Below the pieces are notes generated by a model that was not told the origin of the DNA, did no database searches, and saw only the letters and a list, made by a program, of their open reading frames with translations. From Acanthamoeba lenticulata (taxonomy: Eukaryota > Discosea > Longamoebia > Acanthamoebidae), in contig NAVB01000994.1 in the NCBI GenBank assembly GCA_002179805.1, positions 100,338 through 164,337 of the forward strand: a DNA stretch of 64,000 bases. The letters run 5' to 3'. Both the position numbers and the translations under genes were made by a program. Below, in pieces: positions 55,099-60,636 of this stretch. Each line of letters begins with the position of its first letter. Within the stretch, counting starts at the first letter, position 1.

Positions 55099-55225
55099 TG
55101 CCGACTTTTCATGACTCTAGAGCCGAGAAAGGTGGTGCTGGTGGCGCAAAATGATGAACCTTTGCCATCAAATAAAAAAGCCAACAGACAGACAAGGCGC
55201 AAAAATCTTGACTCTATTGCTTCAT

Positions 55226-56638
55226 ATGAGCACCACACCAACACCAGTCGTTGAACTGCCTCGAGTCGAACCGGAGGAAGTCTTGGCCACCTTACGGGTC
55301 GAGAACGAAGCGCTGACCAAGGAGTGGCAAGAGATCCATGAAAAGGCCATCACCACGTTGGCCAAACGAGATGAAAACGAGCGCAAGCGACGGGCCCTCG
55401 AGAAGCACATCTCTGCATGTGGCCCTACAGAAAAGGAGAAAGGGCCTCCTGCAAAGCGCAAGAAGCACAAGCCGATTAGCTCCCAGATCAAGGCGCTCAT
55501 CATCCACCAAATCCTCAAAGTGGGTGAGCTTACCTGGCAACAAGCAGCAGAGCTCTACCAAGTCTCGAAGAGCTCTGTGCAACGCATCATCCACAAGGCA
55601 CAAGAGGAAGCAGCACGAAAGCTTGCCTGTGCACTCCATGAACCAGCTCCACCTGCTCCTGTCACGAAGCGCAAAGGGCGTAAATCAGTCCTCAATGGTG
55701 AAGATCTGGTGGAGATTCTGGGTTGGATTGAAGATCGCCCTTCAATGACACTGAAAGAAGTGCATGAGTGTGCTGCAGTCGACCTGCAGAAGAAAGTCAG
55801 CAAGTCCACCCTCAAGCGCATGTTCAACACTCTTGACATCATGTACAAGAACATGACGTTGATCCCAGCCAAGTGGAATGAAGAGAGTGTCCTCAACGCC
55901 CAGCAGCACTACGTTCATGATGAAGTGCACAACTTTCTTGGTCGGCCACTGGTCTTCATCAATGAAAGCGCTTTCAACCTGCACCTCGTGGCCAAGAAAG
56001 GGTGGGCTTCTTGAGGAGAGCCTGCTCACCTGAGTGTGCTGCCCAAGCGAACAAATCTGACGCTCATCGGGGCTTTGGCATGTACTGGCATCATCTTCTT
56101 GAAGTTGATCGATTCACAAGAGTTGAAAGGGAAGTGTGGTGTCAATGCAGACGACTTTCGCCTCTTCCTCCTTGACCTGCACAAGCATCTTCCCGAATCG
56201 GCGGTGATTCTCCTCAACAATGCGTCCATCCACAAAACTGACGTGGTCAACGACACTTTCGATCTTCTTCGATCTGATGGGTTCAAAGTGCTCTTCCTTC
56301 CTCTGTACTCGCCCTTCTTGAATCCAATTGAGTACGCCTTCTTGAAGATCAAGGGGGCTGTGCACACAATGCCGTTCCACAACAAAAGTGAGCTCGTGGA
56401 CGCCATCAACAACGCCCTCACCACCATCATGGCAACTGACGCGCGAGATTGGTTTACACACATGATTCACTACTATCAACAATGTGCACTTGGCTTGCCC
56501 TTCACTGGGAAGCCCCTCAAACCGACCATCTTTGAGACTGCTCCGCCTCCAACCGCTGTGCAACGTCACCAGTGGGAGGCATCTGTCTCCACCAAGGCCC
56601 AACCAGCTGTCCCTCGTATCACGCCAGCACCTTAACCT
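55226..56638 (+). pseudogene. Tc1/mariner/IS630-type transposase, interrupted by one in-frame stop and lacking two catalytic Asp
   Basis: N-terminus with a basic region (PPAKRKKHKP) and a helix-turn-helix (WQQAAELYQVSKSSVQRIIH, about 55532-55590), then KSTLKRMFNTL. The first catalytic block reads VFINESAFN (about 55951-55977), where the family has D before E-S. The second reads ILLNNASIHKT (about 56203-56235), where D-N-A is expected. The third, YSPFLNPIEYAF, keeps its Glu. A TGA at 56012-56014 interrupts the frame between KKGWAS and GEPAHLSVLPKR. The same frame then stays open to TAA at 56636, so there is no frameshift. The start at 55226 is chosen over the in-frame ATG at 55151. The protein cannot be catalytically active in its present form. 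Confidence 0.9.
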
Positions 56639-59377: not shown

Positions 59378-60636
59378 TCAAACTTCCTCCGCCTCATCGT
59401 CAGCACCGCCGAAACCGCCCAGAGGACCACCCGTCGAGATGGCTCGCGGAATGAGCATGGCATGAATGTTGGGGAGAACGCCACCATCTGGAACGGCGAG
59501 CCGACACGGCGGACGGTAAGAGAAAGTGTGAAAGTTGGACGGGTATTGTGGCGTCGAAAATGTCGGGAGGGAGCTCCAAGGTACCGGGCAGTACGACATG
59601 GCGAAGCAGCTTGTTGAGCTCCTCGTCGTTGCGGATGGCCAGCATGATGTGCCTCGGAATGATACGTACTTTCTTGTTATCACGCGACGCATTGCCGGCC
59701 AGCTCTGCATTGGGAAAGTACAGATCAACGCCACGTGGAGTAGAGAAAAGGAGCACAAGAGAGGAGCAAACCCAGGATCTCAGCCGTAAGGTATTCTGCA
59801 CACCATTAATAACACGCCACGTCCCATAAATCAGTCTCGAGACACGAACTGCCGAGTCCTTCGGGGGAGGAGAGGAGGCCAAGGCACGTACCCAGCACGG
59901 CAGCCAGGTAGACCGGGGCACCTGCACCAGTCCACAAGGGAGAGTAACATGGGAACAGGGATGTTACTGAAAGGACAGCAAAGAGAGGGTGAGAAAAAAA
60001 GGGATTTGGGGGGGTGCAAGTGCCTGCGCCGACCCTGGCCTTAGACCGTTCCTTAAGATAGCGGTGAATGAAGCCCACCGGGAACAGCAGCCTGTGGGAG
60101 AGCGAGCGATGAGCGAGCAGAAGCTGCTGATCTGCTCGTCTGCCGCGTACGTACCCTGCACGACTCGACTTGCTCATCCTTCCGCTGCTTTTGTCGAGCG
60201 TTGTGTACTTAGTTACAGCCTTTGTGCCCTCTGAAACGGCGTGCTGTGGTTGGAAAGGGTGTCAGCAAACGTAGCAAGGGAAGGTCATGCGGTCTTGATG
60301 GAACGCCCACCTTGGCCAGCTCGCCTGGCAACATAAGACGCACAGATGTCTGCACCTCGCGGCTCGTAAGGGATTTCTTGGCGCACAGCTCTACAAGTTC
60401 CACAGCTTGCTGGAGAATGAAAATCAAGATCATTAACATGCCAGACCTGCCCCCAATAAGAATCAAACCACATGTACCGAGTGAATTCGATCGGCCATAT
60501 CGTGAACAAACGAGTTCATGATGGACATCGCCTTTTGTGAAATGCCCGTGTCTGGGTGCACTTGTTTTAGCACCTTGTAGATGTAGGTGCTGAAGCTCTT
60601 CTGCGTAACAGGCACAATTCGCTTCTTCCTCGCCAT
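59378..60636 (-). CDS. Fused core histone H2B-H2A (histone doublet)
   Basis: Eight exons (60478-60636, 60311-60409, 60155-60243, 60024-60091, 59892-59921, 59772-59795, 59585-59704, 59378-59487) total 699 nt, i.e. 232 residues, with every phase consistent. H2B part (residues 1 to about 100): short tail [55 protein letters not shown], then [17 protein letters not shown] spanning an intron. There is no stop: the frame continues through a linker of about 12 residues ([12 protein letters not shown]) into H2[81 protein letters not shown]. The acidic-patch residues of H2A are present (E in VLE, AEI and ELA; DEE). Differences: Arg to Phe in FPVGF, a shortened L1 loop, an acidic C-tail [10 protein letters not shown], no SQ motif. 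Intron 4 (59922-60023) is GC-AG. Would occupy an H2A-H2B dimer slot in a nucleosome. Confidence 0.93.

Follow-up and report, generated by a model that had tools for sequence, protein, structure and literature searches.

An intron-rich gene of Acanthamoeba lenticulata predicted to encode a conserved, cellular H2B-H2A histone doublet

Can a eukaryote carry, among its own genes, histones H2B and H2A joined in a single polypeptide? The question is raised by a locus in a 64,000-nucleotide stretch of Acanthamoeba lenticulata DNA (the window), which belongs to an assembly of 48.5 megabases in 1,825 contigs. Two profilin genes have Acanthamoeba profilins as their best Protein Data Bank matches, one of them being ~91% identical to profilin II (114 of 125 aligned residues); this assigns the DNA to an Acanthamoeba, though probably to a different strain from that of the matched entries, which come from A. 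castellanii. In the parts of the literature that treat them, fused eukaryotic histones are described as unconfirmed, as unobserved, or as a rule absent (Talbert 2022; Irwin and Richards 2024; "Nucleosomes at the Dawn of Eukaryotes" 2024). No title or abstract reporting a cellular doublet was found in the open-access literature, a body of work that leaves subscription journals and preprints largely outside. The architecture is known from viral and archaeal doublets; what the locus presents is this architecture in eukaryotes, where it is said not to exist.

The doublet gene and its copies in the genome

Splicing and translation of the locus reproduced the coordinates, strand, eight exons, 232-codon frame, consistent phases, and Met109 of the original prediction. 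The linker between the halves is in frame, as had been proposed, and is 14 residues long rather than about 12. The features, in window positions, are as follows.

59378..60636, minus strand: complete coding sequence of the doublet gene (H2B-H2A), with 232 codons and a stop codon spread over 8 exons
60478..60636, minus strand: exon 1, from the start codon through a short N-terminal tail and H2B alpha1 into alpha2, most of which it encodes
60311..60409, minus strand: exon 2, H2B from QAVELVEL through GELAK
60155..60243, minus strand: exon 3, H2B C-terminal helix, linker, and H2A start, unbroken
60163..60204, minus strand: linker, residues 100-113, wholly within exon 3 and carrying Met109
60024..60091, minus strand: exon 4, H2A portion, followed by the GC-AG intron
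60023-59922, minus strand: intron 4, GC-AG, its GC donor kept in the copies on contigs C1261 and C1224
59892..59921, minus strand: exon 5, H2A portion
59772..59795, minus strand: exon 6, H2A EYLTAEIL, with acidic-patch Glu61
59585..59704, minus strand: exon 7, H2A up to RHVVLP, with acidic-patch Asp90, Glu91, and Glu92
59378..59487, minus strand: exon 8, H2A docking region, C-terminal tail ADDEAEEV, and stop

The predicted protein has the order of a histone doublet, with H2B first and both folds in one unbroken frame. A short N-terminal tail leads into a full H2B fold, the linker spans from the H2B C-terminal helix to the H2A motif RAG, and then come a full H2A fold, its docking region, and the acidic tail. 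The translation of exon 1 matches Pfam Histone at 32.8 bits. All seven introns end in AG and six of them start with GT, intron 4 being the one that starts with GC.

Two more copies of the doublet gene were found, on contigs C1261 and C1224, with seven introns at the same positions as in the window gene. Each is 84-85% identical to the window gene in coding sequence, and the two are 98.8% identical to each other. Their upstream flanks are mostly unalignable, so that duplication, and not simple allelism, may account for the two copies. Both paralogues end in EQEY where the window protein has its acidic tail. Comparison of the window gene with the C1224 copy gave a dN of 0.121 and a dS of 0.368 (dN/dS of 0.33, bootstrap interval 0.21-0.51), with dN/dS reaching 1 or more in none of 500 bootstrap replicates; differences at codon positions 1, 2, and 3 numbered 29, 28, and 51. 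Each half is constrained on its own, with dN/dS pairs of 0.080/0.324 for the H2B part and 0.098/0.365 for the H2A core. These substitution patterns show that the doublet has been retained under purifying selection.

These copies bear directly on whether the join is an artefact of assembly or annotation that links adjacent H2B and H2A genes. Such errors are common. In the part of Talbert et al. that deals with putative animal fusions, the cases investigated are put down to mispredicted splicing between neighboring genes; several animal records of this joined type were among the matches listed in our own protein searches, and two database proteins (P0243 and P0275) look chimeric. The join in the window gene, however, sits inside exon 3 (60243-60155), so mispredicted splicing cannot make it. 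Furthermore, three contigs carry this join with all seven introns in common, and it occurs in at least 27 other proteins. The original prediction had named an assembly error joining two loci as a way in which it could fail; as far as the assembled DNA goes, that reading is refuted. An assembly error is unlikely, and we regard an artefact of either kind as barely conceivable. Taken with the relatives described below, sequence comparison confirms the window gene as a real, conserved, cellular H2B-H2A doublet.

Relatives in databases and trees of the two halves

Searches with the window protein, its H2A half, and a profile recovered at least 27 database proteins with a joined H2B-H2A frame in the same order, a lower bound given that each protein search took the best 120 of ~8,000 scored candidates. 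One is from Balamuthia mandrillaris (P0295, 218 residues, deposited as "Histone H2B type 1-A" on a 109,842-base contig), and the remaining 26 are environmental sequences. In the databases, doublets go by labels like "histone H2A" or "Histone H2B type 1-A". One relative, P0004, which was recovered with the window protein, has 269 amino acids and is 77% identical to it over 203 columns that cover both halves, with just two single-residue gaps, small and at the linker. Since the contig that holds P0004 is just 950 bases, its gene is without introns there. Pfam Histone and Histone_H2A_C were found in all 10 database doublets scanned. Of the main fetched set, 23 of 32 proteins entered the alignment used for the comparisons (A2), and 3 of 22 proteins in a further fetched set are doublets. 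One genome-contig scan returned 5 contaminant loci with separate H2A and H2B frames alone and no doublet.

Several joined records were set apart from this family. P0243 and P0275 were excluded because they are probably chimeric, a canonical-like H2B half having been set on a doublet found elsewhere, and P0271, P0285, and P0298 were left out as animal records with ordinary halves. P0280, P0286, P0294, and P0305 are joined proteins with canonical-like halves; they were kept out of A2 and entered in the trees as a "tandem" group. Three of these four have a common linker element, SNAGKGGRG. They may represent a second independent fusion or joins made by gene prediction. Within the family proper, five environmental doublets (P0256, P0268, P0277, P0279, and P0310) carry related N-terminal extensions ahead of H2B. 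A SAP domain in these five N termini was unconfirmed, P0268 alone matching Pfam at 19.6 bits against a cutoff of 23.9. If real, the SAP-like extension would give these histone doublets a DNA-binding module.

The relatives also address the possibility that the locus amounts to two ordinary genes, with H2B ending after exon 3, H2A starting from Met109 or by reinitiation, and the open frame between them accidental. The window gene does have an in-frame ATG, that of Met109, just ahead of the H2A fold, and at least one Met lies there in 9 of 30 doublets, the window gene included. In the other 21 of the 30 (27 database proteins plus the three genome copies), no Met lies in the stretch that leads from the H2B helix to the FPVG motif of H2A. 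The Met-less set includes both paralogues, in which Met109 is replaced by Thr, and the Balamuthia protein, whose H2A half is without any Met. None of the 30 doublets has a stop between its halves, and the linker, 10-37 residues long, is in frame throughout. Because most doublets lack this Met and the paralogues have Thr at 109, a separately translated H2A is not the conserved product, and we consider the two-gene explanation very improbable. The refuting condition set by the original prediction, in which H2A messages of their own begin at Met109, loses force for the same reasons.

The original prediction had called for a phylogeny of the two halves, and the outcome differs between them. When two long rows were dropped (the host H2B variant of contig C927 and the metagenome-assembled sequence MAG L045), the H2B halves of 28 doublets fell on one side of a branch and 18 other H2Bs on the other, with support of 98/92; the canonical H2B sample in these trees is small and mostly animal. 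With the long rows kept, 2 changes were needed, and one change sufficed in only 12% of bootstrap trees. In the tree that kept the long rows, the Balamuthia doublet, P0004, and the Acanthamoeba copies stand together (94/92). P0135 and P0150, whose H2B halves are incomplete, were excluded from the H2B trees and the site counts. The H2A-half tree (66 rows) unites the window gene, P0004, P0135, and the two paralogues with support of 98/94, but it does not place the doublets in one group (4 changes), and a single clade is not rejected (p-AU of 0.357). Distances among H2B halves and among H2A halves are correlated across 27 doublets (r = 0.406, with 0 of 5,000 permutations as high). Such a correlation is expected if the halves travel together, and shared species history alone would also yield it. 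The trees and distances are compatible with one single fusion event, but they do not prove it.

Fold, conserved residues, and comparison with host and viral histones

An AlphaFold2 model was made for the relative P0004 from a 27-row alignment. Its mean pLDDT is 83.5, with values of ~91-98 over both folds, and this prediction on the relative has the doublet folding as an intramolecular H2A-H2B dimer. The best Protein Data Bank matches of the model are engineered single-chain H2B-H2A chimeras (6w4l, rmsd of 1.1 and 67% identity), and such chimeras are also the best matches of the window protein. The engineered chimeras 6w4l, 6k00, 2jss, and 7wlp share with the doublet the order of the halves and nearly the same fold (rmsd of 0.8-2.2 for most, 57-67% identity to P0004). 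They differ from it in being made in the laboratory, whereas the amoebal doublet is natural and has its own linker and tails.

Residues that serve the nucleosome are conserved in the doublets. In the acidic patch, H2A E56, E61, E64, D90, and E92 and H2B E105 and E113 are each kept in all 28 doublets compared, and the eighth position, H2A E91, is kept in 26. H2A R77 and H2B K120 are likewise present in 28 of 28. The doublets carry both the acidic patch and the docking region, as core histones do, and with this conservation the surface used by nucleosome binders and the H2B ubiquitylation site are in place. The free N-terminal tail of H2A is lost. Of 28 doublets, 4 have lysine in the H2A K13 column and none has it in the K15 column, positions at which alignment within the linker is uncertain; at H2A K118 and K119, lysine is present in 9 and 11 of 28, respectively. 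At the C terminus, an SQ-x-hydrophobic ending (SQ-x-aromatic/aliphatic) is found in 10 of 30 doublets and a final Phe or Tyr in 28 of 30. The window protein lacks the SQ-(E/D)-hydrophobic C terminus that defines H2A.X, as do the paralogues with their EQEY ends. The endings found across the family hint at an ancestor of H2A.X type, the Acanthamoeba copies being acidic ended instead, and the H2A parent was probably of this type.

A fused protein of this kind might serve outside the nucleosome, as a chaperone-like decoy, a storage form, or a histone-fold dimer resembling a transcription factor. Nonnucleosomal histone-fold proteins usually lose the acidic patch, H2A R77, and H2B K120. The doublets keep all of these, and the halves of the window protein are 66% (H2B) and 75% (H2A) identical to the bulk histones of vertebrates. 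Nonnucleosomal histone-fold pairs do exist (the histone domain of Son of Sevenless, 1q9c, matches the fold at 23-24% identity), and the Acanthamoeba copies have short tails and acidic C termini that are unlike those of bulk histones. On balance, a nonnucleosomal role seems unlikely, although it is the most serious of the competing explanations, and we favor a nucleosomal doublet.

The same genome also contains separate genes for H2A.X (loci on contigs C148 and C973), H2A.Z, and H2B (locus on contig C303), all with intact and uninterrupted frames. Therefore, the doublet is an addition to the histone complement and not the bulk histone supply. Each window half is 70% identical to its host counterpart, H2B or H2A.X, and the H2A half is only 60% identical to host H2A.Z, which does not place it with H2A.Z. 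Like host H2A.X and H2B, the doublet keeps the acidic patch, the docking region, and H2B K120. Unlike them, it is joined, has no free H2A N-terminal tail, does not keep K13/K15, and is interrupted by seven introns.

Other unusual H2B sequences were seen in this genome. Two loci, L007 (contig C927, minus strand, ~1869-1350 onward) and L008 (contig C1110, 92-1097), have an H2B core that is broken after RLLLPG. The downstream frame (GELAKHAISEGTKA...) leads to a long acidic stretch and then to a sequence that by eye is HMG-box-like, which suggests a putative H2B-HMG protein in two copies. Two divergent H2B-like sequences, L013 (contig C927, minus strand, 2992-2402) and L011 (contig C275, 2580-2843), were also noted; one is very long-branched in the H2B tree, and the other is cut by the contig end.

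The original prediction left three origins open: host invention, a viral gene long domesticated with intron gain, and a relative of the host stock from which viral doublets arose. Under the second, a doublet of marseillevirus type would have entered the amoebal genome and then gained introns. Viral doublets do have H2B ahead of H2A, Acanthamoeba is infected by giant viruses that carry doublets (as stated in part of PMC9145170), and viral doublets with the same fold are among the BFVD matches listed. In sequence, however, P0004 is only 17-43% identical to the viral doublets listed (LCPAC304, 43%; LCMAC102, 39%; Marseillevirus D2XB49, 36%; clandestinovirus, 23%), compared to 64-67% for eukaryotic single-chain chimeras. 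By these identities, neither P0004 nor the window protein is closest to viral doublets among the matches listed, as a member of the Marseilleviridae family would be. The halves of the window protein resemble vertebrate histones, as given above, and the base composition of the gene region is inside the range of the window. Single-domain pandoravirus H2Bs are 45-48% identical to P0004 over a shorter stretch. Three scans of viral contigs (queries P0004, A1, and A2) confirmed no relative, a result of little weight as the patterns are too narrow for known viral doublets, and a blastn search of the locus against a phage collection gave no match.

The genes around the doublet were also considered. 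A Pfam scan of eight neighboring open pieces gave matches above the cutoff to an FAD-dependent oxidoreductase, a thioredoxin-like DsbH, and a DDE transposase, and no virus-naming match was among them. The DDE transposase (window 55151-56632, plus strand) consists of two open pieces with a stop codon between them, ~2.7 kb from the 3' end of the doublet gene; the Pfam DDE_3 match, at 2.5e-14, is on the second piece.

The Marseilleviridae H2B-H2A proteins (H-beta/H-alpha; Melbournevirus 7n8n and Marseillevirus D2XB49) resemble the amoebal doublet in being one chain, H2B first, with a short linker and folds that pair within the chain. They are 35-36% identical to P0004 (7n8n, 35%) and are viral, with an H4-H3 doublet adjoining in the virus. 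The amoebal gene, in contrast, is a cellular, intron-rich one, and its genome also has canonical histones encoded separately. The clandestinovirus doublet likewise has the same order and comes from a virus of amoebae, but it shares the lowest identity to P0004 of the doublets named above. These comparisons say that the window doublet is eukaryotic, not viral, in sequence. We consider entry from a marseillevirus highly unlikely, and domestication of a viral gene is not supported by the identities. No support was found for a relative of the stock behind viral doublets, as the halves are crown-eukaryote-like and unlike the deep viral ones. It is host invention that the evidence supports, with an intron-rich gene, three copies, relatives in Balamuthia and environmental sequences, and ordinary eukaryotic halves.

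Proposed role and significance

The evidence makes it likely that the locus encodes a replacement-variant cellular doublet, an intramolecular dimer that arose in protists when eukaryotic genes for H2B and H2A fused and that is held under purifying selection. In the proposed mechanism, the H2B and H2A folds of one polypeptide would pack together as an intramolecular H2A-H2B dimer. We infer that the doublet is expressed and assembled into nucleosomes, where two doublet molecules could substitute for both H2A-H2B dimers. It would act as a replication-independent variant beside ordinary H2A.X, H2A.Z, and H2B, presumably by bringing a dimer that is already paired, its partner fixed, to particular chromatin or to a particular stage. 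As the partners are tethered, H2A would be deliverable solely with its own H2B, in exact stoichiometry and with no free H2A N-terminal tail. That such a protein is workable is suggested by Xenopus histones joined by viral linkers, which in the portion of PMC11222145 that reports them showed better assembly and solubility in Escherichia coli.

For the family as a whole, we lean modestly toward an old and diverse group of nucleosomal H2B-H2A doublets in Acanthamoeba-Balamuthia amoebae and probably in further protists, a group that descends from histones of crown eukaryotes, had a parent resembling H2A.X, and bears a SAP-like N-terminal module in some lineages. If this is true, the published pre-LECA ratchet that bars histone fusion in eukaryotes would be wrong, and eukaryotic doublets could have supplied some of the viral doublets. 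Reviews and primary papers on the origin of nucleosomes lean partly on the absence of fused eukaryotic histones, a premise that a conserved cellular family would break. The family also offers a new sequence set for the question of viral doublet origin and a tractable system, in a laboratory host of giant viruses that use doublets, for studying the effects of fusion on histone exchange, chaperoning, and marks. Living eukaryotes, it would appear, can keep a joined H2A-H2B with no free H2A N-terminal tail beside their ordinary histones.
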